A stretch of DNA of 32,751 bases from Deltaproteobacteria bacterium GWC2_65_14 (GTDB taxonomy: Bacteria; Desulfobacterota; Deferrimicrobia; Deferrimicrobiales; Deferrimicrobiaceae): positions 23,040 to 55,790 of the forward strand of contig MGPV01000020.1 in the NCBI GenBank assembly GCA_001797615.1, written 5' to 3'. Position 1 is the stretch's first letter; every line of letters begins with the position of its first letter. This document shows positions 2 to 32,733 of the stretch, piece after piece. The notes under the pieces were generated by a model. That model searched no databases, was not told the origin of the DNA, and saw nothing but the letters and a program-made list of their open reading frames with translations. The position numbers were made by a program, and so were the translations under genes.

Positions 2-580
2 GCGCTGCAGCGCGCAAGGGCGCTCGAGCTCGACCTCGTCGAGGTGGCCCCGAAGGCGGACCCGCCGGTCTGCAGGATCATGGATTACGGGAAGTTCAAG
101 TACATGCAGAGCAAGCGGGAGCAGGAGGCACGCAAGAAGCAGACGATCATCCAGGTCAAGGAGATCAAGGTCCGGCCCAAGACCGACGAGCACGATATGA
201 ACGTGAAGATCCGCCACATCCGGAGATTCCTCGAGGACGGCGACAAGGTGAAGGTGACCGTCCGCTTCCGGGGCCGGGAGATGTCCTACGCGTCGAAGAG
301 CGGATTCGAGATGCTCCAGCATATCGTCTCCACGGTGTCGGACCTTTCGAAGGTGGAGAGCCCCCCCCGGATGGAGGGGAGGACGATGATGGCGATCGTC
401 ACGCCGCTCGCGCAGAAGAGGAAATCTGCCGAAAAGAAGGAAGCGGCCGCCGAGAAGAAGCCGGCGCGGGGAACGGCGAAGAGCGGCAAGGGAAAAGAAG
501 GCGACAAGACGGAAGGGAAGGTTCCGGCCGGCACGGCGGCGCGGCCTGCCGACCCGACGGAGACACAGGAGGAACGGTAA
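2..580 (+). CDS. infC: translation initiation factor IF-3 (5'-truncated by window edge)
   Basis: IF-3 binds the 30S subunit and checks initiator tRNA and start codon. The reading frame is open from base 2, so the N-terminal part of the N-domain lies outside the window; the GTG at 44 is internal (V of the VEVAP motif), not a start. The family hallmarks DPPVCRIMDYGKFKY and the C-domain (VKEIKVRP, then the RFRGRE segment) are present. About 50 residues rich in Lys, Ala and Glu follow the C-domain, longer than the usual IF-3 end. The stop overlaps the rpmI start (TAATG), so translation is probably coupled. It is the first visible gene of the conserved IF3-L35-L20 operon; the leader is not visible. 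Confidence 0.97.
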   Translation, partial: ALQRARALELDLVEVAPKADPPVCRIMDYGKFKYMQSKREQEARKKQTIIQVKEIKVRPKTDEHDMNVKIRHIRRFLEDGDKVKVTVRFRGREMSYASKSGFEMLQHIVSTVSDLSKVESPPRMEGRTMMAIVTPLAQKRKSAEKKEAAAEKKPARGTAKSGKGKEGDKTEGKVPAGTAARPADPTETQEER

Positions 581-9745: not shown

Positions 9746-11296
9746 GTGGGGAACCGCGGCTTCGGCCGGGACGAGAAAAGCCTTCTCTGGGGCGGGGTCG
9801 TGCTGCTCGCAGCCTCCGCGGGGATGGGGGTCGTGGCTGCGTCGGGAACCGGATCCGTGGCGCTGCGCCTTGCGGTCGCCCTCTTCGGGGCAGGCACCGG
9901 GGTCCTCCTCCTCCTGCTCCGGTCCCACCTCCTCGTCACCGTTCGTGCCGCCAGGATGCTCTCCGATTCGGTGAAGGCCCACGTGGAAGGATCTCCGGAA
10001 ACGATTTCCCTCCAGGCAGCGGCAATGGCCGCCTCGGAGCTGCTTCACCGGCATCGGGAGGAGAGAGTTGGGAGCGGGTCGGAGGCGGTTTCCGTCGACT
10101 CCCTCCGGGAGGAGATCCGGATAGCCACCGAAGCCCATCAGGATCTTCTCACACACCACCGGGTCACGAAGCGGATGCTCCAGTCGCTTCGCCATGATGA
10201 GGTGCTCGATGCGCTCGTATTGGGGATCCGGAACGGCCTCGGCTTCCCCGGGACGATCCTGGGGATCCGGGACCCGGGAGGAAACCTCTTCTTCCGGGGA
10301 GACTCCGCCCGGGGCGGGGGAGAGCAGGTGTCCATCCCCTGCTGGGACGAGGACTCCCTTCTGGCGCGTACCCTGTGGAGCGGAACCCCGCTCCTGGTCT
10401 CCTCGCTCGGGGAGCACCGGCATACCGATCAAGATCGGAGAGTGCTGGGGGAAGGATCCTCTCTTCTCGTTCCCGTGTTCCGGAAGGGGATCCGGAAAAG
10501 TTCGGAGGGAAAGAGTTTCAACAGCCTCCAGTGTTCCGCATACCTGGTGGAAAAGCCGCGCTGCTGGATCGAGGGAGGTCCGCGTCAGGCGGCCCGGGAT
10601 CCGGAAGCGCTGGACAATCAGAGACGGCAGTGCGCACGGTGCGAGATGTTCGCCGTCCCCGCGATCGTGGTGGCCAGGGAAAGCAACGGCTCCCGCCCCA
10701 TCGGTCTCGAGGCGACCGCATCCATCGTCTCCCTTGTGGACGAGGCGGCGCTGGCGCTCGACATCGCGGAGTTGTATGAAACTACACGGATCATGTCGGT
10801 GACGGACGGGCTTACCGGCCTGACGAACCACCGGGAGTTCTATGCAGCCCTCCGGAGGGAGCTGGAACGGGCGCGACGCTATTCCCACGCCGTTTCCCTT
10901 CTCATGATCGACGTCGACGACTTCAAGCGGTTCAACGACCTGCACGGTCACATGGCCGGGGACCGGGCGTTGAGGACGATCGCGGGCCTCCTGATTCAGT
11001 GCGTCCGGGCCACCGACATCGTGGCGAGGTACGGAGGGGAGGAGTTCGGGATCATCCTTCCGGAGTCGTCTCCCGTCGGAGCCCAGATGCTGGCCGAGCG
11101 GATCAAGACCGAGGTTGCGTCGCACGTTTTCCTGCAGAACGGGCGGGAAGCGGTCCACCTGACGGTGAGCATCGGCATCTACACCTCGGATGCGGGAGCC
11201 GCCTCCGAGGACCTCATGGTGGGGTACGCCGACGAGGCGGCCTTCCTGGCGAAACATTCCGGAAAAAACCGGGTTGTCGTGAAGGCGCATGCTTGA
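9746..11296 (+). CDS. membrane diguanylate cyclase with GAF-like sensor and four-cysteine insert
   Basis: A 516-residue protein making c-di-GMP. Two N-terminal membrane helices lie at about 14-34 and 42-62, then a linker helix and a GAF-like region at about 135-345. The GGDEF domain is at about 350-516 with DGLTGLTNHREF, the metal motif MIDVDDFKRFND, and an intact GGEEF at 430-434. The I-site RATD (421-424) sits five residues before it, predicting product inhibition. C263, C273, C296 and C299 form a Cys cluster inside the sensor. I prefer the GTG at 9746 (GGGGAG six bases upstream) over the GTG at 9716, whose AGGGA is too close. Its end overlaps the dGTPase gene by eight bases. Confidence 0.88.
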   Translation: MGNRGFGRDEKSLLWGGVVLLAASAGMGVVAASGTGSVALRLAVALFGAGTGVLLLLLRSHLLVTVRAARMLSDSVKAHVEGSPETISLQAAAMAASELLHRHREERVGSGSEAVSVDSLREEIRIATEAHQDLLTHHRVTKRMLQSLRHDEVLDALVLGIRNGLGFPGTILGIRDPGGNLFFRGDSARGGGEQVSIPCWDEDSLLARTLWSGTPLLVSSLGEHRHTDQDRRVLGEGSSLLVPVFRKGIRKSSEGKSFNSLQCSAYLVEKPRCWIEGGPRQAARDPEALDNQRRQCARCEMFAVPAIVVARESNGSRPIGLEATASIVSLVDEAALALDIAELYETTRIMSVTDGLTGLTNHREFYAALRRELERARRYSHAVSLLMIDVDDFKRFNDLHGHMAGDRALRTIAGLLIQCVRATDIVARYGGEEFGIILPESSPVGAQMLAERIKTEVASHVFLQNGREAVHLTVSIGIYTSDAGAASEDLMVGYADEAAFLAKHSGKNRVVVKAHA

Positions 11297-12443
11297 CCGG
11301 GCGGAATTCGAGCGCCAGGAGGCTGCGCGACTGGCTCCCTATGCCGTGAAGAGCTGCGAGACGAGGGGGAGGAGACACCCTGAGCCGGAGGATCCTTTCC
11401 GGTCCGTCTTCCAGCGGGACAGGGACCGCGTCATCCACTCGGCTGCCTTCCGACGGCTGGAGTACAAGACCCAGGTGTTCGTGAACCACGAAGGGGACCA
11501 TTACCGGACCCGGCTCACGCACACGATCGAGGTCTCCCAGATCGCCCGGTCGATCTCCCGCGCCCTCCGCCTGAACGAGGATCTCACGGAGGCGATCGTG
11601 CTGGCCCACGACCTCGGCCACACCCCCTTCGGGCACGCGGGAGAGCGGAGAATGGCCGAGTTGATGGAAGGGGAGGGGGGGTTCGAGCACAACCTCCAGA
11701 GTCTCCGGGTGGTCGACCTGCTCGAGAAGCGGTATCCCGATTTCGACGGGCTGAATCTCACATTTGAGGTCCGCGAGGGAATCTGCAAGCACAGCTCCCA
11801 GTACGACGATCCTCCCTCCGTGGATGAGTTCGACTCTCCCGGGTTTCCCACCCTGGAAGCGCAGGTCGCCGATATCTCCGACGAGATCGCCTACAGCAAC
11901 CATGACGTCGACGACGGGATCCGTTCCGGAATGCTCTCGGTTTCCGGGATGGAATCGGTTCCGCTCTGGAAGGAAGCGGTCCGGTTCGTTCGGAATGAAT
12001 ATACTGCAATAGATGAGGATATATTACGTTCCCGCTCGATATCATTCATGATATCCGCCCTATCCCGCAACCTGATTCATGCCACGGACGAGCGACTGAA
12101 GCGGGAGGGGATCCAGTCGGTCGAGGATGGGAGGAATTGCAGGAATAAGTGTGTTTCCTTTGATGAGAACATGAAGGATAAGAACATGGAATTAAAGAAA
12201 TACCTATTGGAGAACATGTACGGGAATTACCGGGTGATGCGGATGGAGCAGAAGGCTCGAAGAATCCTCGGCGAGCTGTTTCAGACATACTGCGAACGTC
12301 CGCAGCAGCTTCCCCCCCACATCTTTGCCAGGATGAACCAGGAAGGAAAGAAGCGGGTGGTGTGCGACTATATCGCGGGGATGACGGATCGGTATGTCCT
12401 GGAGGAATACCGGAAGCTCTTTGATCCGATGGAGAAAGTATAG
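11289..12443 (+). CDS. dgt: dGTPase-like HD-domain triphosphohydrolase
   Basis: A 384-residue protein of the deoxyguanosinetriphosphate triphosphohydrolase-like family, hydrolysing dNTP to nucleoside and tripolyphosphate. It shows DPFRSVFQRDRDRVIHSAAFRRLEYKTQVF, then the HD metal site: H78 (THTIEVSQ), H107-D108 (LAHDLGHTPFGHAGE) and the later Asp in ADISDEIAYSNHD. It ends with the usual PPHIF and YIAGMTDRYVLEEY. The ATG overlaps the diguanylate cyclase stop by eight bases, implying coupled translation. Codons around 12000-12050 and 12140-12230 are AT-richer than the flanks. Confidence 0.93.
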   Translation: MLDRAEFERQEAARLAPYAVKSCETRGRRHPEPEDPFRSVFQRDRDRVIHSAAFRRLEYKTQVFVNHEGDHYRTRLTHTIEVSQIARSISRALRLNEDLTEAIVLAHDLGHTPFGHAGERRMAELMEGEGGFEHNLQSLRVVDLLEKRYPDFDGLNLTFEVREGICKHSSQYDDPPSVDEFDSPGFPTLEAQVADISDEIAYSNHDVDDGIRSGMLSVSGMESVPLWKEAVRFVRNEYTAIDEDILRSRSISFMISALSRNLIHATDERLKREGIQSVEDGRNCRNKCVSFDENMKDKNMELKKYLLENMYGNYRVMRMEQKARRILGELFQTYCERPQQLPPHIFARMNQEGKKRVVCDYIAGMTDRYVLEEYRKLFDPMEKV

Positions 12444-21739: not shown

Positions 21740-22546
21740 TCAGACGGCGGCGGTCATCCTCTCTCCCCGGATGACGACCCGGGAAGGGTCGATCTCCTCC
21801 CGGAGGAGCCGAAGCTCCTCCTCCGTGGGAGGCGGGATTTCCAGAACATCCGGGGAGATCCGGGGGGCGAAGCCCATGTCGCGGGTCACCTCCTCGACCG
21901 GAATCCCCCGAAGAACGCCGAGCAGGGTCATCTCGCAGGAATCCTTGTCGAAGCCGAAGAGCGCCTTGGAGGTGACGACCCGGTAGGGGCCGGTTTCCGC
22001 GGGAAGCCCCGCCTTCTCCCTGGCGCCCGGCCCGGTGAGGTACCCCGGGGAGGTCAGGAACTCCACCCGGGGAACGAACCGGCGCCCCTCGTGCTTGATG
22101 ACGATGATCGTTCTCCAGCAGTGGGAAGCGACCTGGTTTCCCCCCCCGCTTCCGGCGAACCGCCGGTGCGGTCTTTCGTAGGAGCCGCCGAGGTAGGTGG
22201 AATTGATGTTCCCGTAGGGGTCGACCTGGAGCGCGCCCAGCATCCCGTAGTCCATGTAGCCGGACGCGGAGTAGGCGAAGGCCCAGTTCATGTTCAGCCA
22301 TTGCAGCGACCGGTAGGTGTTCTGGGGCCCCCCCATCGTTCCCCGGACGAACGGAAGGATCGACTGCGGCCCGATCGCCCCGAACTCGAAGAGCTGGATC
22401 ACGTTGGGGACGTAGAGCTTCTGGGCGAGGATCGCCACGATCTGCGGGATCCCCCAGCCGACGAAGAACGACTTCCCGTCCTCGAGGAGCCTCGCCCCCT
22501 GCGCGATCATGAACTCCGTGTCGGTGAACTCTACCGTCCGCGCCAT
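21740..22546 (-). CDS. CoA-transferase subunit B (glutaconate CoA-transferase type)
   Basis: A 268-residue beta subunit of a family I CoA-transferase. It contains FFVGWGIPQIVAILAQKLYVPN, then QLFEFGAIG; the Glu54 there aligns with the catalytic glutamate of GctB. GNINSTYLGG, GSGGGNQVASHCWRTIIVIKHEGRRFV and FLTSPGYLTGPGAREKAGL follow, all typical. I chose ATG 22546 (GGAGG six bases upstream) over the adjacent GTG at 22549. Subunit A lies 172 bp upstream, an unusually long gap. It probably activates a dicarboxylic or branched acid by exchanging CoA; IpdAB-type ring-cleaving hydrolases share this fold and remain an alternative. Confidence 0.85.
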   Translation of the reverse strand: MARTVEFTDTEFMIAQGARLLEDGKSFFVGWGIPQIVAILAQKLYVPNVIQLFEFGAIGPQSILPFVRGTMGGPQNTYRSLQWLNMNWAFAYSASGYMDYGMLGALQVDPYGNINSTYLGGSYERPHRRFAGSGGGNQVASHCWRTIIVIKHEGRRFVPRVEFLTSPGYLTGPGAREKAGLPAETGPYRVVTSKALFGFDKDSCEMTLLGVLRGIPVEEVTRDMGFAPRISPDVLEIPPPTEEELRLLREEIDPSRVVIRGERMTAAV

Positions 22547-22666
22547 CACCGCCCTCCTCTCATTCCCCCCGCATCGCCGCGGGTCCCCGCTGGCCGGGGC
22601 CGCGGTCGACGGCGCAGCAGCCGCAGGAGGGGGGATGAGCGGAGATAAAAAGAATGATCCGCGGGC

Positions 22667-22721: not shown

Positions 22722-23690
22722 TCACCGGTACCCCTCGACGATGGTGGCGGCTTCCCGGAGCTCCCGCATCCGCGCCGCCCCGACGCGCTTGTCGAGGAAC
22801 TCGTCGTGGTCGGCGACGCTGTAGACGCACTCCTCGAGGTAGGCCTGCATCTGCTCCTCGGTGCGGATCCCGTTCAGCCGGTCGACGTGGGGGAGGTCGA
22901 TCTCGTACCGGGCCGGCATCGCCCCCGGGTAGGCGCCGAAGGGGGCGTGGACGACCGCGTCCACGAGGAAGTAGGGGATGGTGGTCCGCATCGGGTCCTT
23001 CCGGAACTCGTCGGGATCGACGATCTCCTCCGCGGAGACGATGACCCGTTTCGACGCCATTGCCGCCTCGAGGGCGAACAGGTTCGTACCGAAGATCCGG
23101 CAGTCGCCGAACCGGTCGGCCTGGTGCGCATGGAGAAAGGCGACGTCGGGGTTGAGCGCCGGAACCAGCGCGACCGGAAGCCCGGTATAGGGGTCCTCGA
23201 TGACTTTCGCGGCCGAGACGGCCAGGTTGTCCGAGCCAAGCAGGTCCCGGGTCGGAAGGAACGGCACCCCGCGTGCCCCCGCGAGGATCCGCAGGGCGAG
23301 GCCGCCGTTGGTCCAGTCGTAGACCTTGAGCCGGCCGTCGCAGACCGCCTGTCCGATGTAGCTCCCGTACCCGAGGAACCCGACGTCGATCCGGGTCGCG
23401 CATCCCGCGCCGGTCAGCAGGGCCGACTCGTGGAGGGTGAACTCCGCCCCGATCCAGAGATCCCTCTTCCGCTGCCGGATCACCTCCCGGATCAGCGACT
23501 GGGGGCCCCGGGTCAGGCTGGAGAAGTCGTACACGATGTAGTCGCCGTCCGCCACGAATTCGGAGACCGCCTCCCGGGCCGTGCGGAGCTTCGGCTCCGG
23601 CTTCCGGCTCCTTCGGTCGCGGACATGCCTGCGGAAATCGTCCGGGTGCTCGAACCGGTACTCGACCTCTCCCTCCCTCCGGATCCTCAC
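22722..23690 (-). CDS. CoA-transferase subunit A (glutaconate CoA-transferase type)
   Basis: A 322-residue alpha subunit. About 40 charged residues precede the family core. ADGDYIVYDFSSLTRGPQSLIREVIRQRKRDLW marks the start of the fold, followed by AGCATRIDVGFLGYG, GVPFLPTRDLLGSD, ALNPDVAFLHAHQADRFGDCRIFG and IVDPDEFRKDP, which match GctA-type subunits. GTG start at 23690 overlaps the meaB stop (GTGA), so it is coupled to the mutase accessory gene. The pair with subunit B would form an (alpha-beta)2 enzyme. The substrate is not readable from sequence; the operon suggests a branched or dicarboxylic acid. Confidence 0.86.
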   Translation of the reverse strand: MRIRREGEVEYRFEHPDDFRRHVRDRRSRKPEPKLRTAREAVSEFVADGDYIVYDFSSLTRGPQSLIREVIRQRKRDLWIGAEFTLHESALLTGAGCATRIDVGFLGYGSYIGQAVCDGRLKVYDWTNGGLALRILAGARGVPFLPTRDLLGSDNLAVSAAKVIEDPYTGLPVALVPALNPDVAFLHAHQADRFGDCRIFGTNLFALEAAMASKRVIVSAEEIVDPDEFRKDPMRTTIPYFLVDAVVHAPFGAYPGAMPARYEIDLPHVDRLNGIRTEEQMQAYLEECVYSVADHDEFLDKRVGAARMRELREAATIVEGYR

Positions 23691-24685
23691 TTCCCCCTCC
23701 CCCGCTTCCCCGACCCTTTCGATTCCGCCTCGAGGAAACGGTGCTCGAACCGGTGGTCGATCACCTTCTCGGCGACCGTGTAGGGATCCCGCTTCTTCTC
23801 GGCGATGTCCCGGACGAGCGACTCGAGGAGGCCGTGGCCGCGCAGATCCGCGACCGCCTTCTCGAACAGCTTCTTCCGGAGGATCTCGTGGAGCTCCACC
23901 TCCGCCTTCCCGAGACGGTAGCGGGACAGGTTCTCCTCGCGGGAGACATGGTTCCGGTGACGCTCCACCTCCTCCATGAGCGCCTCCACCCCGATCCCCT
24001 CCGGGGCGACGGTCGGCAGGACCGTCGGCCTCCAGTCCCCCTCCCCGTAGTCGTTCATGGAGACCATCGTCTCGAGCTCCCGGCGCGTCTTGTCGGCCCC
24101 GTCGCGGTCGGCCTTGTTCACGACGAAGATGTCCGCGATCTCGAGGATCCCCGCCTTCATCGCCTGGATGTCGTCGCCCAGCCCCGGGACCACCAGGACC
24201 AGGTTCGTGTGCGCCACCTTGACGATCTCGACCTCGTCCTGCCCCACCCCCACCGTCTCGATGAGGATGACCTCCTTGCCCATCGCGTCCATCACGTTCA
24301 CGATGTCGATGGTGGACTTGGAGAGGCCGCCCATGTGGCCCCGCGTGGCGAGGCTCCGGATGAAGACGTCGTCGTCGAGCGCGTGCTTCTGCATCCGGAT
24401 CCGGTCGCCCAGGATCGCGCCCCCGGTGAAGGGGCTCGTCGGGTCGATCGCGACGATCCCGATCGTCTTCCCCTGCTGCCGGAAGTGCCCGGCGAGGCAG
24501 TCGACCAGGGTCGATTTCCCTGCGCCCGGCGCCCCGGTGACTCCCAGGATGTAGGCCCTTCCCGTGTGGCGGTAGAGCCGCTTCAGGGCGCGGTGGGCGG
24601 CGGGGATCTCGTCGTCGAGATCCCGCATCAGGCGGGCGGCCGCCTGGACGTTCCCTGCGAGGATCTCCTTCACCGCGACGGTCAT
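23687..24685 (-). CDS. meaB: MeaB-type G3E GTPase, B12 mutase chaperone
   Basis: A 332-residue GTPase that gates adenosylcobalamin delivery to, and protects, B12-dependent acyl-CoA mutases. Walker A is GVTGAPGAGKST (51-58), followed by the MeaB signature IDPTSPFTGGAILGDRIRM and RSLATRGHMGGLS. The Walker B/switch region is IETVGVGQDEVE, and the base motif NKAD is at 190-193. The C-terminal dimerisation region is helical and ends in a Lys/Arg-rich tail. It is separate from the mutase rather than fused as in IcmF. ATG at 24685, seven bases after the acyl-CoA dehydrogenase. Confidence 0.95.
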   Translation of the reverse strand: MTVAVKEILAGNVQAAARLMRDLDDEIPAAHRALKRLYRHTGRAYILGVTGAPGAGKSTLVDCLAGHFRQQGKTIGIVAIDPTSPFTGGAILGDRIRMQKHALDDDVFIRSLATRGHMGGLSKSTIDIVNVMDAMGKEVILIETVGVGQDEVEIVKVAHTNLVLVVPGLGDDIQAMKAGILEIADIFVVNKADRDGADKTRRELETMVSMNDYGEGDWRPTVLPTVAPEGIGVEALMEEVERHRNHVSREENLSRYRLGKAEVELHEILRKKLFEKAVADLRGHGLLESLVRDIAEKKRDPYTVAEKVIDHRFEHRFLEAESKGSGKRGRGK

Positions 24686-24692
24686 CGGCCGA

Positions 24693-25835
24693 CTATCCCC
24701 GGATGAGGCGCCGCGCGATGATCAGCCGCTGCACCTCGGAGGTTCCCTCCCCGATCTCGCAAAGCTTCGCGTCCCGCATGTAGCGCTCGACGGGGTATTC
24801 CCGGGTGTACCCGTATCCCCCGAAGATCTGCACCGCCTTGATCGTCGCCCGCATCGCCGCCTCCGATGCGAAGAGCTTGGCCATGGCCGCCTCCTGGGCG
24901 TAAGGCTTCCCCCGGTCCTTCAGGTAGGCCGCCCGCATCGTCATCAGGTCGGCAGCCTCCAGCTCGGTGACCGCGTCCGCGACCATCCACTGGATCGCCT
25001 GGAAGCTTGCGATCGGCTGGCCGAACTGCTGCCGCTCCTTCGCGTAGGCGATCGCCTCCTCCATCGCCCCGAGCCCGATCCCCGCGGCGAGCGCGGCGAT
25101 CGAGATCCGCCCCCCCGCGAGGTTGCGCATCGTGTCCCGGAATCCGGAGTTCACCTCTCCGATCACGCTCCCGGGCCGGACCTCGAGATCCTCGAAGACC
25201 AGCTCCGCGGTGTCCGACGAGCGCATCCCCAGCTTGTGGAGCGTCTTCCCCGTGGAGAGCCCCGGGGTTCCCGCCTCCACGAGGAAGGCGGTGACCCCGT
25301 CCCGTCCCTTTCCCTTGTCGGTCACCGCCAGGATCACATAGACGCTGCCGACTTTTCCATGGGTAATGAACATCTTGCTGCCGTGGATCACCCACCGGTC
25401 GCCTTTCCACTCCGCGCGGGTCCGCATGTTCAGGGAATCGGACCCGGACCCGGGCTCGGTGAGCGCCCAGGCCCCGAGCATCCTGCCGGAAGCCAGCTCC
25501 GGGAGGTACTTCTTCCGGATCGCCTCCGAGCCGAAGGAGAGGATGTGGGCGGTGCAGAGGGAGTTGTGGGCGGCGACGGTGAGCCCCAGGGAGCCGTCCC
25601 CCTTGCCGATCTCCTCCACCGCGATCGAGTAGCTGATCGTGTCCATCCCGGACCCGCCGTACTCCTCGGGGACCATGACCCCCAGGAGCCCCAGCTCCCC
25701 GAGCCGGGCCACCGTGGCGGACGGGAACTCCCCCTCCTCGTCCCACCGGCGGGCATGGGGGCGGACCTCCTTCTCGACGAAGGATCGGACCGTCTCCCGG
25801 AGCGCCCGGTGCTCCGGTTTCAGCTCGAAATCCAT
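24693..25835 (-). CDS. acyl-CoA dehydrogenase (first of three paralogues by coordinate)
   Basis: A 380-residue flavoprotein oxidising an acyl-CoA to the 2,3-enoyl-CoA. The three family domains are visible: the N-terminal helices, the middle beta domain with [10 protein letters not shown] and KMFITHG, and the C-terminal helices with [38 protein letters not shown] and the catalytic-base motif EGTSEVQR (Glu363) follow. Isovaleryl-CoA dehydrogenases lack Glu at this site, so it is not of that type. It has IGEGTSE where its two upstream paralogues have IYEGTSE, suggesting a different substrate. The DUF35 gene ends 12 bp upstream. Confidence 0.92.
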
Positions 25836-26407: not shown

Positions 26408-27694
26408 CTACCACCCCCGTTCCAGGATCGACACGGTGACGTAGGTCCCCGTGCCGGCATGGCTGTGGATCAGACCGCGATCCGCCTTTTTCAACTGCAG
26501 TTCCCCCGAGCCGAAGTGCTGCCGGATCCTCCCCTGGATCTGCCAGAAGGCGAACACGGCCTGCATGAGCCCGGTCGCCCCCACGGGGTGCCCGCAGGCG
26601 ATCAGCCCCCCGGAGGGGTTGATCGGGATCGTCCCCTTCTTCTTCAGCTTCAGGCCGTAGTCGATCTGCGGCAGGAAGGGATGCCCCTCCTCGACGAACG
26701 TTCCGCCGTCTCCGTACTTGCAGAGCGCCAGGTCCTCGTAGGTCTGGATCTCCGACGAGGTGTAGGCGTCGTGCAGCTCGATGAAGTCGATCTCCCGGAT
26801 CGGGTCCTTGATGCCGGCCATCTTGTAGGCCTGCAGCCCCGCGGATCGCCCCGCCCGGAAGGAGTGGACGCCGGGGTACTTCAGCTTCCCGTAGTCGCTC
26901 TCCTTTTCGTTGGGCGCCAGGATGACCTTCCCGTGCGGACGGTCGGCGAAGCGCATGAAATCGGTCCCCGTGCCGACCCCGCTGATCCGGACCGGCTTGT
27001 CGGTGAGCTTGAAGGCCGTCTCCTCGTCGGTCAGGATGCAGACCGCCGCCCCGTCCGACATCACGCAGATGTCCAGCAGCGTCAGCGGGTAGGCGACCAT
27101 CTGGGAGTCGCGCACATCCTGGATCGTGAGCTTCCGCCGCTTCTGGGCGTACGGGTTGTAGCAGGCGTTCCTGTGATTCTTCACCGACACCATCGCCATC
27201 TGCTCTACCGTGGTGCCGAACTCGTGCATGTGCCGGTTCACCATCATCGCGTAGTACCCCGAGTAGAAACCGCCGACGGGGTAGTCGAAGTTCGTGTCCG
27301 AGGCGTGCGCGATGAACTCGTTCCCCTTCCAGGTCTGGACCCGGGACATCGTCTCGAATCCGAAGACCACGCAGCAGTTCATCCGTCCCGAGGCCACCGC
27401 CTCCCACCCCGACTGGAAGGACAGCCCCCCGGTGGCGCCGCCGCCTTCCACCCGCTTGTTCGGCTTGGGGCAGAGACCGAGGTAGTCGGTCGCCATGATC
27501 CCCGCCATCAGCTGCCGAGTGAAGTGATCCGAGAAGTAGGAGGCGACCGAGCCGTCGATCGTCTCCCGCTTGAGCTTCGGAAGGTCGCCGTAGGCGTAGT
27601 CGAACGCCTCCTTGACCATCTTCTGGAAGGTCGCGTCCGGACGCGCCTTCTCGAACTTGCTGACTCCGCCCGATACCATGTAGACCGGTCTCAC
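26408..27694 (-). CDS. thiolase-superfamily protein lacking the nucleophilic Cys
   Basis: A 428-residue thiolase-fold protein. It keeps the second-half motifs IELHDAYTSSEI (H308) and NPSGGLIACGHPVGATG (H369), and ends with HSHAGTGTY instead of the CxG motif. The nucleophile region reads RVEGGGATGG where the family has VEAACASG, so Gly86 replaces the acyl-accepting Cys. It therefore probably does not perform ordinary thiolysis. A Claisen-independent retro-aldol, as in the DUF35-partnered aldolase Ltp2, is one candidate, although Ltp2 has also lost the histidines kept here. GTG start at 27694. The DUF35 partner follows at two bases. Confidence 0.82.
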   Translation of the reverse strand: MRPVYMVSGGVSKFEKARPDATFQKMVKEAFDYAYGDLPKLKRETIDGSVASYFSDHFTRQLMAGIMATDYLGLCPKPNKRVEGGGATGGLSFQSGWEAVASGRMNCCVVFGFETMSRVQTWKGNEFIAHASDTNFDYPVGGFYSGYYAMMVNRHMHEFGTTVEQMAMVSVKNHRNACYNPYAQKRRKLTIQDVRDSQMVAYPLTLLDICVMSDGAAVCILTDEETAFKLTDKPVRISGVGTGTDFMRFADRPHGKVILAPNEKESDYGKLKYPGVHSFRAGRSAGLQAYKMAGIKDPIREIDFIELHDAYTSSEIQTYEDLALCKYGDGGTFVEEGHPFLPQIDYGLKLKKKGTIPINPSGGLIACGHPVGATGLMQAVFAFWQIQGRIRQHFGSGELQLKKADRGLIHSHAGTGTYVTVSILERGW

Positions 27695-27741: not shown

Positions 27742-28185
27742 TCAGGCCCTCGGCCGGACCTTGTCGTTTACGTACGAAATGATCTCCGACAGGGGGGTCC
27801 CCGGCGTGAACACCCGGTCCACCCCCTTCTTCCGCAGACCCGGGATGTCGTCGTCGGGGATGATCCCTCCGCCGAAGACCACGACGTTTCTCATCTTCTT
27901 TTCCCGGAGCAGCTCCACCACCTTCGGGAAGAGGTAGTTGTGGGCACCGGAAAGGATCGACAGCCCGATCGCATCCACATCCTCCTGCACGGCGGCGTTC
28001 ACGATCATCTCCGGCGTCTGGTGGAGTCCCGTGTAGATCACCTCGAACCCGGCGTCGCGCAGCGCCCGTGCGATGATCTTCGCCCCCCGGTCGTGACCGT
28101 CCAGCCCCGGCTTTCCGACCAGGATCCGCACCTTCCGTTTCGGTTTTCCGCTTCCCCTCTTCGTCCGCGTGAGAGCGCTCGCCAT
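27742..28185 (-). CDS. B12-binding small subunit of acyl-CoA mutase
   Basis: A 147-residue cobalamin-binding domain. It has [15 protein letters not shown] with DxHxxG (D29, H31, G34), whose His ligates cobalt. The [14 protein letters not shown] loop and [13 protein letters not shown] at the nucleotide tail follow, then the [11 protein letters not shown] helix. It pairs with the large subunit encoded 20 bp upstream to make a split mutase, as in isobutyryl- and 2-hydroxyisobutyryl-CoA mutases and many archaeal and deltaproteobacterial methylmalonyl-CoA mutases. ATG at 28185 with AGGGGGG five bases upstream. A basic 18-residue N-terminal tail precedes the domain. Confidence 0.93.
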
Positions 28186-28205: not shown

Positions 28206-29885
28206 TCAGAACATCGCCGGGTCGGAATAGGTCCCCAGGGTCTCCCGGAACGCGTCGCAGATCTCCCCCAGGGTCACGTATTCCCGCACGGCTTCCAGAA
28301 TCACCGGCATCAGGTTCTCCGTGGAGCGGGATGCGTCCTTCAGCCGATCCAGGCACTGTCCGGCACGCTTCCCGTTTCGTTTCCTTCGGACCTCCCGCGT
28401 GCGGGCCACCTGCTTCCGTTCGACCTCCGGGTCGATCTTGAGCAGGGGGATGGGAGTCTCTCCTTCCATCGTGTAGCAGTTGACCCCCACGACCTTCTTC
28501 TCCCCCTTTTCCAGGAGCCGCTGGTAGTGGTAGGAGGCGTCGATGATCTCCCGCTGGGGGTACCCCTTCTTGACCGCCTCGACCATCCCCCCGAGATCGT
28601 CGATCTTTTGGATGTAGGCCATCGCTTTCTCTTCCATCCCGTTCGTGAGCCTCTCGACCAGGAAGGAGCCCCCGAGGGGGTCGATCGCGTTCGCCACCCC
28701 GGACTCCTCGGCCAGGATCTGCTGGGTCCGCAGGGCGATCGTCACCGCCTGCTCCGACGGAAGCGCCAGCGTCTCGTCCATCGAGTTCGTGTGGAGCGAC
28801 TGGGTCCCTCCGAGCACGCCCATCAGCCCCTGCAGCGCAACCCGGACGACGTTGTTGAAGGGCTGCTGGGCGGTCAGCGTCACCCCGGCGGTCTGGGTGT
28901 GGAACCTGAGCTTCCAGGAGTTCTCGTCCTTCGCCCGGAACCGCTCCCGCATGATCCTCGCCCACATCCGGCGCGCCGCGCGGTACTTCGCGATCTCCTC
29001 GAAGAAGTCCATGTGGGCGTTGAAGAAATAGGAAAGCCGGGGAGCGAACTTGTCCACGGGGATTCCGGCTTCGATCCCCGCCTGCACGTAGGCGATCCCG
29101 TCGGCGATCGTGAAGGCCAGCTCCTGGACGGCGGTGGATCCCGCCTCGCGGATGTGGTAGCCGCTGATGCTGATGGTGTTCCAGCGGGGGACGTGATCGG
29201 CGCAGTAGGCCATGATGTCGGTGATGATCCGCATCGAGGGATCGGGGGGGAAGATCCAGGAGTGCTGGGCGATATACTCCTTCAGGATGTCGTTCTGGAT
29301 CGTCCCGCCGATCTTCTTGGGGGAGACCCCCTGCTTCTCGGCCACCGCGATGTACATCGCCAGGAGGATCGCGGCGGGGGCGTTGATCGTCATCGAGGTG
29401 GTGACCCGGTCCAGCGGGATCCGGTGGAAGAGGATCTCCATGTCCTTCAGGGAATCGACCGCCACGCCGCAGACGCCGACCTCTCCGCGGGCCCGCGGAT
29501 GATCCGAGTCGTACCCCATCAGCGTGGGGAAGTGGAAGGCGGTGGAGAGCCCGGTCTGCCCTTCCTTCAGAAGGTAGCGGAATCTCGCGTTGGTGTCCTC
29601 GGCGGATCCGTAGCCTGCGAACTGCCGCATGGTCCAGAGGCGCCCGCGGTACATGGAGGGCTGGACCCCCCGGGTGTACGGGTACTCCCCGGGGAAGGAC
29701 AGATCCTTCAGGTAGTCGAAGGTCCCGAGGTCGTCCGGGCCGTACAGCGGTGCGATCTCCTCGTCGGAGACGGTGGAAAATCTCGAAAGGCGCTCCGGGG
29801 ATTTTCCCAGAACGGGGGAGAGCGTCTCCTTCTCCCACCGCTTCCGCCGCTGTGATGCGCTCCCCATCTTCTTCCGGTCGTACAC
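28206..29885 (-). CDS. methylmalonyl-CoA mutase family large subunit, isobutyryl-CoA mutase-type active site
   Basis: A 559-residue substrate-binding TIM-barrel subunit of an adenosylcobalamin mutase. The numbering coincides with P. shermanii methylmalonyl-CoA mutase: T85, R87, S114, S164, T166, T195, Q197, N236, Y243, H244, R283, S285 and F287 are all conserved. Substrate-selecting Tyr89 and Arg207 are instead Phe89 (TMRQFAGYG) and Gln207 (EYIAQHSW), the isobutyryl-CoA mutase pair. FDLP is changed to FHFP (H118). GTG start at 29885, eight bases after GGAGG. The small subunit, MeaB and adenosyltransferase are in the same operon. No epimerase is nearby. Confidence 0.93.
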
Positions 29886-29898
29886 GGCATCCCCCTCC

Positions 29899-30438
29899 TT
29901 ATCGCTCCACCCCTACGCGGGCGTCGACTCCCTTCGCGTAGTAGTGCTTCACTTCCCGCATCTCCGTGACCAGGTCGGCCAGCTCCAGGAACTCGGGGGG
30001 CGCCCCCCTTCCGGTCAGCAGGATCTCCATCCCTTCCGGCTTCCTCCGCAGCAGGTCGACGACCTCCCCGACGGGAAGGAGCCCGAAATCGACCGCGCAG
30101 TTGATCTCGTCGAGGACCACGATGTCGGCGCGCTTCCCGAGGATCGCCTGCCTGGCGAGCTCCCATCCCTCCCGGGCCAGGCGGACATCCTCCGGGTCCG
30201 GGTTTCCGCGGTTGACGAAGGTGTCCCTCCCCGCCTGGTGGATCTCGACGTAGGGGGAAAGCATCTCCACCCCTTTGAGCTCTCCGTAGTCGATCCACCC
30301 TTTCATGAACTGGATGATGACGGTCCTGAGGCCGTGCCCGGCGGCCCTCAGGGAGAGCCCCAGCGCGGCGGTCGTCTTCCCCTTGCCGTTCCCGGTGTAG
30401 ACCTGGATGTACCCTTTGCCGATGGCGCCCGCGGTCAT
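29899..30438 (-). CDS. CobO/BtuR-type corrinoid adenosyltransferase
   Basis: A 179-residue ATP:cob(I)alamin adenosyltransferase making the adenosylcobalamin cofactor. The P-loop is [14 protein letters not shown] (16-23), followed by [11 protein letters not shown], then [18 protein letters not shown] and [22 protein letters not shown], all standard for the CobA/BtuR family. It lies 13 bp before the mutase gene and its ATG overlaps the upstream acyl-CoA dehydrogenase stop (ATGA). With no cobalamin biosynthesis genes nearby, it probably supplies or regenerates cofactor for this mutase. Confidence 0.94.
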
Positions 30439-31583
30439 GCGCCGTGTCTCCCCAGCAGGTCCCGCGCGACGACGATCCGCTGGATCTCGGAGGTCCCCTC
30501 GTAGATGGTAGCCACCTTGATGTCCCGCAGGTGACGCTCCAACGGGTAATCCCGGATATACCCGTATCCGCCCAGGATCTGGACCGCCTTGTGGCATGCC
30601 CGGTTCCCCGCCTCCGTGGCGAAGACCTTCGCCATCGAGGCCTCCCGGCCGAACGGCTGCCCCCGCTCCTTCCTGTAGGCCGCACGGCAGATCAACAGCC
30701 ACGAGGCGTCGACCTCCGTGGCGGAATCGGCGAGCATGAACTGGATCGCCTGGAACTCCGAGATCGGCTGCCCGAACTGCTTCCGCTCCTTCGCATAGGC
30801 CGCCGCCGAATCGAGCGCGGCGCGGGCGATTCCGACGGCCTGGGCGGCGATCCCGATCCGGCCGCCGTCGAGCGCGCTCATCGCGATCCGGAACCCCTCC
30901 CCCGGGCTTCCCAGCATGGCCTTGTCCGGCACCCGGCAATCCTCCAGGGCAAGCGACACGGTGGCGGAGCCTTTCAGCCCCATCTTCCGCTCCGGCTTGC
31001 CGACGGTCAGCCCCTTCGCTCCCCCCTCCACGAGGAAGGCGCTGATCTCCTTCCGGTCCCCCTTCCCGGTCACCGCCATGACGATCGTCACGGCCGCCCG
31101 GTCCCCGTTCGTGATGAAGACCTTGTTCCCGTTCAGCACGAAGGAGTCTCCGTCCCGCACCGCCGTCGTGGAGATCGCCTGCGCGTCGGACCCGGCCTCC
31201 GGCTCGGTCAGCGCGAAGGCGCCGATTCCGTCCGTCGCGGAGGCAAGCGCCGGGAGATATCGATTCCGCTGCTCCTCGTTCCCGAACCGCCAGATCGTCT
31301 CCCCCACCATGCTGCTGACCGCCAGGATGACCGCCGTGGAGGCGCAGCCGGAGGCGATCTCCGACAGCGCCAGGCTGTAGGCCACGGCGCCGGTCTCCGA
31401 TCCACCGTACTCCGCGGGGAAGAGCATCCCCATCAGCCCGAGCTCGGCCAGCTTCCGGATGTTCTCTTCCGGGAACCGCGCCGACTCGTCGACTTCCGCC
31501 GCCCCGGGGGCGAACTCCTTCCGGGCGAGGGACCGGACCATTTCCCGGATCTGGGACTGCTCTTCCGTCAGGGTGAAGTCCAC
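30435..31583 (-). CDS. acyl-CoA dehydrogenase (second paralogue)
   Basis: 382 residues with the full three-domain fold: EYGGSETGAVAYSLALSEIA, FALTEPEAGSDA, NKVFITNGD, and KERKQFGQPISEFQAIQFML. GGYGYIRDYPLERHLRDIK follows, with the catalytic Glu362 in IYEGTSEIQR, the short-chain/butyryl-type arrangement. It is most similar by eye to the gene just upstream (both share GGRIGIAAQAVGIAR), suggesting tandem duplication. Residues such as RKERGQPFGREASM differ from it, so substrates may have diverged. Seven bases separate it from that paralogue, and the stop overlaps the adenosyltransferase start. Confidence 0.92.
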   Translation of the reverse strand: MDFTLTEEQSQIREMVRSLARKEFAPGAAEVDESARFPEENIRKLAELGLMGMLFPAEYGGSETGAVAYSLALSEIASGCASTAVILAVSSMVGETIWRFGNEEQRNRYLPALASATDGIGAFALTEPEAGSDAQAISTTAVRDGDSFVLNGNKVFITNGDRAAVTIVMAVTGKGDRKEISAFLVEGGAKGLTVGKPERKMGLKGSATVSLALEDCRVPDKAMLGSPGEGFRIAMSALDGGRIGIAAQAVGIARAALDSAAAYAKERKQFGQPISEFQAIQFMLADSATEVDASWLLICRAAYRKERGQPFGREASMAKVFATEAGNRACHKAVQILGGYGYIRDYPLERHLRDIKVATIYEGTSEIQRIVVARDLLGRHGA

Positions 31584-31590
31584 GGCATCC

Positions 31591-32733
31591 TCAGTCCTTC
31601 AGCAGCGCGGAGGCGATCACCATCCGCTGCACCTCGGAGGTCCCCTCGTAGATCTCGGTGATCTTCGCGTCCCGGAAGTGCCTCTCCGCGGGGTATTCCT
31701 TGATGTACCCGTACCCCCCGTGGATCTGGATCCCCTTGACGCCCGCGCGCATGGCCGTCTCGGAGGCGTAGAGCTTCGCCATGGAGGACTCCTTCGAATG
31801 GCGGGCCTTCCGGTCCTTGAGCCACGCGGCGCGGTAGATCAGCATCCTCGCCGCCTCGATCTCGGTGGCCATGTCGGCGAGCATCCACTGGATCGCCTGG
31901 AAGTTCGCGATCGGCTGTCCGAACTGCTTCCGCTCCTTTGCGTAGGCGAGCGCATCCTCCAGGGAAGCGCGGGCGATCCCGACCGCCTGGGCGGCGATCC
32001 CGATCCGCCCTCCGTCCAGGGTGTGCATGGCGACCTTGAACCCGTCCCCATCCTGCCCCAGCCGGTTCTCCACCGGGATCTTCACGTCCTCGAGGATGAT
32101 CGAGGCGGTAGCCGATGCGTTAATTCCCATTTTTTTCTCATTTTTTCCAACGGTTACACCCTCGTATTTCATGTCCAGGATGAAGGCTGTGATCCCTTTG
32201 TGTTTCTTCTCCCGGTCGGTCATCGCGAAGAGGACGCAGCTGTCGGCCTGGGGGGCGTTCGTGATGAAGTTCTTGGTTCCGTTCACCACGTAGTGCTCGC
32301 CGTTGCGGACGGCGGTCGTCTTCTGGGACCCGGCGTCGGACCCGGCGCCGGGCTCCGTCAGGCCGAAGCATCCCAGCTTCTTCCCCGAGGCAAGAGGTGT
32401 GAGGTACTTCTCCTTCTGCTCCTCGGTGCCGAACCTGAGGATCGGGTCGCAGGCCAGGGAGTTGTTCACCGACAGGATCACGCCGGTCGAGGCGCAGGCT
32501 CTCGAGATCTCCTCCATCGCGATGGCGTAGCAGATATTGTCCATCCCCGCGCCGCCGTACTCCTCCGGCACGGCGACCCCCATCAGCCCGAGCTCCGCCA
32601 TCTGGCGGACAAGCTCCTCGGGGTAGCGGCCGGTCTCGTCGAGTTCGGCGGCCTTCGGCAGGACCTCCTTCTGCGCGAAGGTCCGCGCCATGTCCTGGAT
32701 CATCTGCTGTTCTTCGGTCAGGTCGAAGACCAT
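31591..32733 (-). CDS. acyl-CoA dehydrogenase (third paralogue, first transcribed in window)
   Basis: 380 residues, complete. It shows EYGGAGMDNICYAIAMEEIS, FGLTEPGAGSDAGS, NGTKNFITNAP, KERKQFGQPIANFQAIQWML, and GGYGYIKEYPAERHFRDAK. The catalytic Glu363 lies in [10 protein letters not shown]; this pattern is typical of short-chain acyl-CoA (butyryl-CoA) dehydrogenases. ATG at 32733 follows ATGGGGG; only 18 bases remain to the window edge, so promoter and any earlier operon genes are outside. A short AT-rich stretch at 32110-32160 uses AAA-rich codons (KKM near residue 200). No electron-transfer flavoprotein genes are in view. Confidence 0.93.
   Translation of the reverse strand: MVFDLTEEQQMIQDMARTFAQKEVLPKAAELDETGRYPEELVRQMAELGLMGVAVPEEYGGAGMDNICYAIAMEEISRACASTGVILSVNNSLACDPILRFGTEEQKEKYLTPLASGKKLGCFGLTEPGAGSDAGSQKTTAVRNGEHYVVNGTKNFITNAPQADSCVLFAMTDREKKHKGITAFILDMKYEGVTVGKNEKKMGINASATASIILEDVKIPVENRLGQDGDGFKVAMHTLDGGRIGIAAQAVGIARASLEDALAYAKERKQFGQPIANFQAIQWMLADMATEIEAARMLIYRAAWLKDRKARHSKESSMAKLYASETAMRAGVKGIQIHGGYGYIKEYPAERHFRDAKITEIYEGTSEVQRMVIASALLKD

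Follow-up and report, generated by a model that had tools for sequence, protein, structure and literature searches.

The window, a stretch of 32,751 nucleotides, encodes on its minus strand a thiolase-fold protein of 428 residues in which glycine replaces the nucleophilic cysteine. Together with the DUF35 protein encoded directly downstream, it is read here, with a probability of roughly 0.45, as a putative cysteine-independent C–C lyase that would act via a CoA-thioester enolate. Retro-aldol cleavage of a short branched 3-hydroxyacyl-CoA would be its likeliest activity, with branched-chain amino-acid or fatty-acid catabolism as the most likely setting. The missing thiolase nucleophile, the retained oxyanion-hole histidines, the DUF35 pairing and the acyl-CoA catabolism setting make such a lyase the most economical reading. 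Databases label the protein 'thiolase' or 'acetyl-CoA acetyltransferase', although it is incapable of covalent thiolase chemistry and probably splits C–C bonds through some other chemistry. Its conservation extends over Nitrospirae, anammox bacteria, Geobacteraceae, NC10, Bacillota, Chloroflexi and archaea, with branched-chain acid breakdown genes as neighbours, and the textbook enzymes of leucine breakdown (HMG-CoA lyase and methylcrotonyl-CoA carboxylase) are mostly missing from its host genomes. If it is a lyase, it would fill a gap in anaerobic branched-chain catabolism and show a Cys-free outcome of the thiolase fold whose residues differ from those of Ltp2 and Sal.

The cysteine-free active site and its clade

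The gene has a GTG start, with a GGGGGAGGG stretch just 5′ of it, and a TAG stop; the earlier note had given no strand. The gene and its key codons are:

26408..27694, minus strand: Cys-free thiolase-fold protein, 428 aa; Thiolase_N and Thiolase_C_1 both over cut-off
27524..27526, minus strand: His57 codon (SDHF motif, clade-specific); His in 98/99, in none of the Cys paralogues
27437..27439, minus strand: Gly86 codon (thiolase nucleophile position); Gly in 99/99 clade members, Cys in 13/13 paralogues
27263..27265, minus strand: Tyr144 codon (clade-specific, candidate catalytic residue); Tyr in 98/99, Phe/Met/Ala in the Cys paralogues
26771..26773, minus strand: His308 codon, HDAY motif (oxyanion hole I); aligns with Tyr294 of TcLtp2 and Tyr302 of CtSal
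26765..26767, minus strand: Ala310 codon, HDCF cysteine position of most relatives; Ala in 99/99, Cys in 12/13 paralogues
26588..26590, minus strand: His369 codon, GHP motif (oxyanion hole I); aligns with Tyr344 of TcLtp2 by alignment end points
26459..26461, minus strand: His412 codon (clade-specific; canonical CxG/oxyanion-hole-II position), candidate general base; His in 98/99, in none of the Cys paralogues

The replacement of the nucleophile by Gly86, claimed in the earlier note, is borne out by translation and alignment: residues 81–90 read RVEGGGATGG, and Gly86 falls on the nucleophilic cysteine of an acetoacetyl-CoA thiolase (6esq, RVEAACASG) and of a Pyrococcus thiolase (7yvy, KIEAACASGG). 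His308 (in HDAY) and His369 (in GHPVGATG), reported there as kept, stand at those numbers in the translation; the oxyanion-hole residues (HDxF/Y, GHP) are present, as is the thiolase fold. The second catalytic cysteine of thiolases, that of HDCF or of the C-terminal CxG, is missing, with Ala310 and His410-Ser-His412 found instead. The motif HSHAGTG (from His410) does occur in the C-terminal CxG region as the note had said, but it is more than a degenerate CxG, since His412 aligns with Val/Ile/Leu in relatives. By motif alignment, residue 412 presumably takes the place of the CxG glycine, the backbone of which, next to the nucleophile, forms part of the lining of oxyanion hole II, while residue 144 is taken to be the loop position before the substrate-contacting Met157 of the Zoogloea thiolase; we infer from these correspondences that His412 and Tyr144 lie close to the substrate.

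An AlphaFold2 model (34-sequence alignment) reached a pLDDT of 91.5 and a pTM of 0.94, and its best PDB match is the archaeal acetoacetyl-CoA thiolase 6et9_C (TM 0.85/0.93), followed by other top matches to SCP2-thiolase, 7yvy, 4yzo and BbsB. The solved thiolase-like protein 4yzo (Sulfolobus tokodaii ST0096), with an aligned motif VDNTSGSGG and serine at the nucleophile position, is another Cys-free relative in the PDB. Against the NF004982 (PRK06365) profile, the window protein gives a full-length match of 684.3 bits, below the curated cut-off of 695; its orthologues score 681–698 bits, astride this value, which makes the group a borderline sister group of PRK06365.

Homologues were drawn from relatives, from 297 genomes of the phylum and from a scan of GTDB species genomes, and the glycine site recurs in all three. 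The GTDB scan returned 247 confirmed relatives, the best 80 of which share 68–93% identity with the window protein; orthologues this similar in many phyla argue for a selected function. Among the bacterial matches are Deltaproteobacteria, Nitrospirae, Scalindua, Anammoxibacter, NC10, Geobacteraceae, Chloroflexi, Bacillota, Thermoleophilia and Terriglobia, and archaeal matches come from two groups, Undinarchaeales and Heimdallarchaeota; the source genome carries a single copy. Another cysteine in the nucleophile slot, a possibility that the earlier note had raised against its own reading, was sought and not found: position 86 in 112 distinct aligned homologues is Gly in 99 and Cys in 13, and the substitution is neither a sequence error nor an isolated case. 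In maximum-likelihood trees, which hold 13 Cys sequences only, are arbitrarily rooted and leave out Ltp2 and Sal, the Gly proteins form one side of a single branch separating them from the Cys paralogues (support 100/99), and the invariance of Gly86 across so many phyla is beyond chance.

Four residues are newly fixed in the Gly clade and occur in none of the Cys paralogues, namely His57, Tyr144 and His412 (98/99 each) and Ser411 (99/99). Ala310 is found throughout the clade and in one of the 13 Cys paralogues, the other 12 having Cys, and the oxyanion-hole histidines are retained (His308 in 98/99, with Tyr in the remaining member, and His369 in 99/99). The loss of Cys86 and of the HDCF cysteine alongside the gain of these four residues is what would be expected of a re-tooled active site. 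The lone exception (L074, the same as L028; L074:8243-9454) is the first branch within the clade and has Gly86 and Ala310 but lacks Tyr144 and His412. Its branching order, which involves one long branch only, would fit cysteine loss preceding the gain of the new residues; this protein possibly represents an earlier stage or has another function.

Operon and gene neighbourhoods

The thiolase-fold gene lies among the following genes of the window:

21740..22549, minus strand: CoA-transferase subunit B; Pfam CoA_trans, nearest solved relative glutaconate CoA-transferase B (1poi_B, E 1.5e-41)
22722..23690, minus strand: CoA-transferase subunit A; Pfam CoA_trans
23687..24685, minus strand: MeaB GTPase (B12-mutase chaperone); TIGR00750, 321 bits versus a cut-off of 241
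24693..25835, minus strand: acyl-CoA dehydrogenase ACAD1 (EIGEGTSE type); closest to true isovaleryl-CoA dehydrogenase in the source genome
25848..26405, minus strand: DUF35 partner (zf-ChsH2 and OB_ChsH2_C), 185 aa; both Pfam domains over cut-off, zinc ribbon C-x2-C-x10-C-x2-C
27742..28185, minus strand: B12-binding small subunit of acyl-CoA mutase, assigned by position
28206..29885, minus strand: isobutyryl-CoA-mutase-type large subunit; Phe for MCM Tyr89, Gln for MCM Arg207, no HCM Asp117
29899..30438, minus strand: ATP:corrinoid adenosyltransferase (BtuR/CobO); NF004637/TIGR00708 over cut-off
30435..31583, minus strand: acyl-CoA dehydrogenase ACAD2
31591..32733, minus strand: acyl-CoA dehydrogenase ACAD3

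The DUF35 pairing proposed from the sequence at the outset holds: the gene running from 26405 to 25848 directly follows the thiolase-fold gene and encodes both ChsH2 Pfam domains. The linked mutase carries the isobutyryl-CoA mutase signature (RQFAGYG, IAQHSWIF), and a canonical MCM (RQYAGF/IARGTYIYP) is encoded separately, beside a carboxylase, elsewhere in the source genome. The Phe/Gln signature and this separate MCM rule out methylmalonyl-CoA mutase for the operon enzyme, and the lack of Ile90 and Asp117 rules out 2-hydroxyisobutyryl-CoA mutase. ACAD1 is the best match to isovaleryl-CoA dehydrogenase in the source genome (42% identity), but with Ile at the Glu254 position and Glu at the 376 position it is not a true IVD. 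The CoA-transferase pair was considered as IpdAB and rejected, the nearest solved relative of subunit B being glutaconate CoA-transferase and not IpdB. A dGTP triphosphohydrolase gene on the plus strand at 11289-12443 of the window (NF002326, 522 bits versus a cut-off of 390) bears no relation to the operon, and a masked-base stretch adjoins the last acyl-CoA dehydrogenase gene just past the window end (L173:772-1758, G000:C20).

In close relatives the gene order is MerR, canonical thiolase, 3-hydroxybutyryl-CoA dehydrogenase, enoyl-CoA hydratase, two acyl-CoA dehydrogenases, BtuR, mutase large and small subunits, thiolase-fold protein, DUF35, ACAD1, MeaB and CoA-transferase A and B. Neighbours were counted in 80 scan loci, the best 80 of the 247 relatives, many of them on short contigs, so the counts are lower bounds. 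DUF35 is present in at least 68 of the 80 and directly next downstream of the thiolase-fold gene in 66/77; an ACAD occurs in at least 45, the mutase or its B12 small subunit in at least 43 (a small-subunit homologue lies directly upstream in 37/79), a 2-oxoacid dehydrogenase or VOR in at least 22, a canonical Cys thiolase in 25 and an acetoacetate-CoA-ligase-cluster protein in at least 12. After DUF35 and ACAD, it is the isobutyryl-type mutase and not a leucine gene that recurs most tightly, a point against the reading favoured below. As a control, a mutase subunit within 1.5 kb was found in 0/12 loci of Cys-type paralogues, versus 14/14 in the window clade and 6/24 in other Gly clades. At the positions of MCM Tyr89 and Arg207, the mutases of the examined loci carry Phe and Gln, the isobutyryl-type pattern, the exception being a second, canonical MCM in L069. 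An MBL-fold hydrolase recurs in at least 23 of the same 80 loci; it is YtnP/lactonase-like at about 200 bits, under the cut-off (L104:8713-9594, L127:6873-7787 and 22 further loci), and in Nitrospirae such a gene stands between the large and small mutase genes. Two DUF35-like matches (68% and 56%) follow the thiolase-fold gene in a Thermoleophilia locus (L154:11000-11300), where the DUF35 gene may be split or its frame broken.

Many loci have the thiolase-fold gene without a mutase, and one genome shows the reverse. In G005 (L171, G005:C5, 1823-12410), the genes from the canonical thiolase through the isobutyryl-type mutase are kept, as is MeaB, while two blocks flanking MeaB are missing, the thiolase-fold, DUF35 and ACAD1 genes to one side of it and the CoA-transferase pair to the other. 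This single case, a draft genome of 96% completeness from the same genus group as the positive genomes G012 and G017, suggests by the joint absence of these genes that the thiolase-fold protein, DUF35, ACAD1 and the CoA-transferase may act together, apart from the mutase, as a separable module. No publication on this gene cluster was found in the literature searched; the closest paper describes an isobutyryl-CoA mutase cluster in a syntroph, and the word 'thiolase' is absent from its text (PMC5017805).

Mechanism, substrate and rival explanations

The retention of the enolate-stabilizing histidine pair, the loss of both cysteines and the gain of an invariant histidine and tyrosine are best read as enolate chemistry without an acyl-enzyme. 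Activity, direction, substrate and the roles of His412 and Tyr144 are all putative. In the proposed mechanism, His308 and His369 would stabilize the acyl-CoA enolate, as in thiolase; without a cysteine no acyl-enzyme would form, and a base would be needed where the thiolate was. His412, in the space freed by the Cys86-to-Gly change, would take the proton from the 3-hydroxyl, with or without Tyr144, and the C2–C3 bond would break to give an aldehyde or ketone and an acyl-CoA. Such a retro-aldol cleavage would be the direct analogue of thiolysis, the same enolate leaving from an electrophilic carbon that bears a hydroxyl group rather than a ketone, and DUF35 would close and shape the pocket, as in BbsAB, Ltp2–ChsH2 and Sal–Shy. 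The favoured candidate substrates would be tertiary β-hydroxy thioesters, for which oxidation to the 3-ketone that a normal thiolase needs is not possible: either 3-hydroxyisovaleryl-CoA, which would yield acetone and acetyl-CoA, or HMG-CoA, which would yield acetoacetate and acetyl-CoA. The lyase would then lie on the leucine/isovalerate side and the mutase of the cluster on the isobutyrate/valine side.

The genomic evidence picks out no single substrate. Branched-chain acids are indicated by the VOR or 2-oxoacid dehydrogenase genes nearby, with a VorB over the cut-off that adjoins the thiolase-fold gene in L098 and VorB on the same contig, some 10–14 kb away, in five related genomes (G004, G008, G009, G017 and G024); the models for 2-oxoacid dehydrogenases do not separate branched-chain from pyruvate types. 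Leucine is indicated by a true isovaleryl-CoA dehydrogenase beside the gene pair in L122 (624 bits to 4kto) and L071, and by ACAD1 as the source genome's best match to that enzyme. No HMG-CoA lyase (NF004283 at E 1e-30) was found in the source genome, which is among the 15/16 genomes of the family, class and phylum without one, nor in 18/20 diverse positive genomes; this absence is also common in genomes without the thiolase-fold/DUF35 pair, and is therefore no more than consistent with the leucine reading. Acetoacetate is indicated by an acetoacetate-CoA ligase beside the pair in L131 and L153 (TIGR01217, 919 and 937 bits versus 521) and, unrelated to this ligase system, by a 3-oxoacid CoA-transferase in L124; a member of the same ligase cluster in L151 is instead of the acetate-CoA-ligase type, and acetoacetate activation in the same operon could merely serve the canonical thiolase. 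The acetone carboxylase γ subunit was found in 2/31 genomes and neither in the source genome nor in the others (29/31), which would make acetone a dead end in most hosts and leaves a route through acetone and acetone carboxylase unsupported. An MCC-like carboxyltransferase was found in 2/20 diverse positive genomes and not in the source genome; the idea that the protein replaces HMG-CoA lyase everywhere is weakened accordingly, and the origin of HMG-CoA, were this the substrate, is unexplained without MCC. Such a replacement still fits the Undinarchaeales locus L127 (2080-9803), where an MCC-like biotin carboxylase/carboxyltransferase pair, hydratases, one of them methylglutaconyl-CoA-hydratase-like, and a thiolase lie beside the gene pair, and no HMG-CoA lyase was found in that genome. 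A bolder version, held to be rather improbable, would have leucine and isovalerate broken down without methylcrotonyl-CoA carboxylase or HMG-CoA lyase across many bacterial phyla and some archaea. On this route the Cys-free thiolase-fold/DUF35 lyase would split a tertiary β-hydroxyacyl-CoA with a new His/Tyr catalytic set, beside the valine-branch B12 mutase.

Other functions were weighed against retro-aldol cleavage. A thiolase or acyltransferase working without a covalent intermediate, with CoA attacking a 3-keto thioester directly and His412 as its base, would suit the otherwise intact thiolase site and the best fold match to an acetoacetyl-CoA thiolase, but the CoA tunnel would already be occupied by the substrate's own CoA, a canonical Cys thiolase is present in many of the same operons (25/80 of the best loci) and we know of no precedent for non-covalent thiolysis in the family; little probability is assigned to it. 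Decarboxylation, in which the enolate would arise by CO2 loss from a malonyl-type or β-keto acid thioester, has a model in the KSQ domains, which decarboxylate malonyl groups with the nucleophile replaced. In its favour, oxyanion hole I is kept, and TbSLP, a Cys-free SCP2-thiolase-like protein, slowly decarboxylates malonyl-CoA; on the other hand, Sal did not do so (PMC12329534), the linked mutase, isobutyryl-type by its signature, makes no malonyl thioester and most loci have no linked carboxylase or malonyl gene, which renders a decarboxylase distinctly improbable.

The loss of both cysteines of the thiolase machinery could instead mean that the fold is degenerate and that, with DUF35, it serves as a scaffold for CoA thioesters, or channels them, on their way between the acyl-CoA dehydrogenase and the B12 mutase, which its gene often adjoins; in an archaeal complex, DUF35 forms the bridge from thiolase to HMG-CoA synthase (PMC12329534). 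Such a non-catalytic role is considered unlikely, as the oxyanion-hole histidines stay in place and 98–99/99 sequences share four newly fixed polar residues, unlike in a decaying site, and as the mutase with MeaB and the thiolase-fold gene each occur without the other. Different enolate chemistry on a branched acyl-CoA, in which His412/Tyr144 and His308/His369 would serve as the two bases of an α-epimerase, isomerase or (de)hydratase, would also make use of the fixed residues, as they would be suitable for moving a proton at C2 between two bases. An epimerase is often required by B12 mutases, which are stereospecific, but isobutyryl-CoA lacks a stereocentre at C2, many clusters already contain enoyl-CoA hydratases and, to our knowledge, all characterized DUF35-partnered thiolase-fold enzymes make or break C–C bonds, so that this possibility appears slim.

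Comparison with Ltp2, Sal and other thiolase-fold systems

CtSal, with its DUF35 partner Shy (PDB 9myr), has glycine where SCP2-thiolases have the nucleophile, and an equivalent glycine is mentioned for TcLtp2 (PMC12329534); the substitution alone is therefore not new, and Sal, a proven aldolase with this glycine, counts in favour of the lyase reading. The window protein shares the thiolase fold, the DUF35 partner and the glycine with both CtSal and TcLtp2–ChsH2 (PDB 6ok1), as well as a presumed acyl-CoA substrate with Sal, whose own acyl-CoA substrate is a steroid. In the Foldseek list of the window model, CtSal stands at rank 35 (23% identity) and TcLtp2 at rank 46 (22% identity). An annotated 'lipid-transfer protein' on a Rhodococcus plasmid, considered as an Ltp2 candidate, turned out to be SCP2-thiolase-like.

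The window protein may work like Ltp2 and Sal, in which catalysis relies on the tyrosine of YDHF/YDCY together with Tyr344 (Ltp2) or Cys304 (Sal) (PMC12329534). Their defining motif Tyr-Asp-x-Phe/Tyr is, however, missing, HDAY being found instead (HDAY/HDAF in the clade), and so is their catalytic acid, with His369 and Ala310 at the respective positions. TcLtp2 has Tyr294 and Tyr344 where the window protein has His308 and His369, the latter placed by phmmer end points (window 84-379 versus 6ok1 82-354), and CtSal has the dyad Tyr302/Cys304 (YDCY) and, by an inferred position, Gln352 for the GHP histidine. With histidine in place of the base tyrosine and alanine in place of the essential cysteine of Sal, the mechanism would not be theirs.

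The archaeal acetoacetyl-CoA thiolase of the HMG-CoA synthase complex (6esq/6et9) has the closest fold, a separate DUF35 protein and the HD-x-F/Y and GH motifs, but is a working thiolase with a nucleophilic cysteine (VEAACASG) and HDCF. The benzoylsuccinyl-CoA thiolase BbsAB (PDB 7pxp) likewise has a DUF35 partner and a role in acyl-CoA catabolism, and its HDA-F/Y motif lacks the HDCF cysteine, but the nucleophile is kept (QSACSAG). Members of NF004982/PRK06365 ('thiolase domain-containing protein') that score over the cut-off (L031-L033) share the glycine site, HDAF and SHAG and differ in having KTGGATGG and MHAVGATG, compared with EGGGATGG and GHPVGATG in the window protein. HMG-CoA lyase (NF004283), by contrast, is a TIM barrel. 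The type intermediate between thiolase and Ltp2 envisaged in the earlier note is apt at the level of residues, a Sal-like glycine being combined with thiolase histidines at the Tyr294 and Tyr344 positions of Ltp2, but finds no support as an account of evolution: Ltp2 and Sal are more distant from the protein, in sequence and in fold, than are archaeal acetoacetyl-CoA thiolase, SCP2-thiolase and BbsB.
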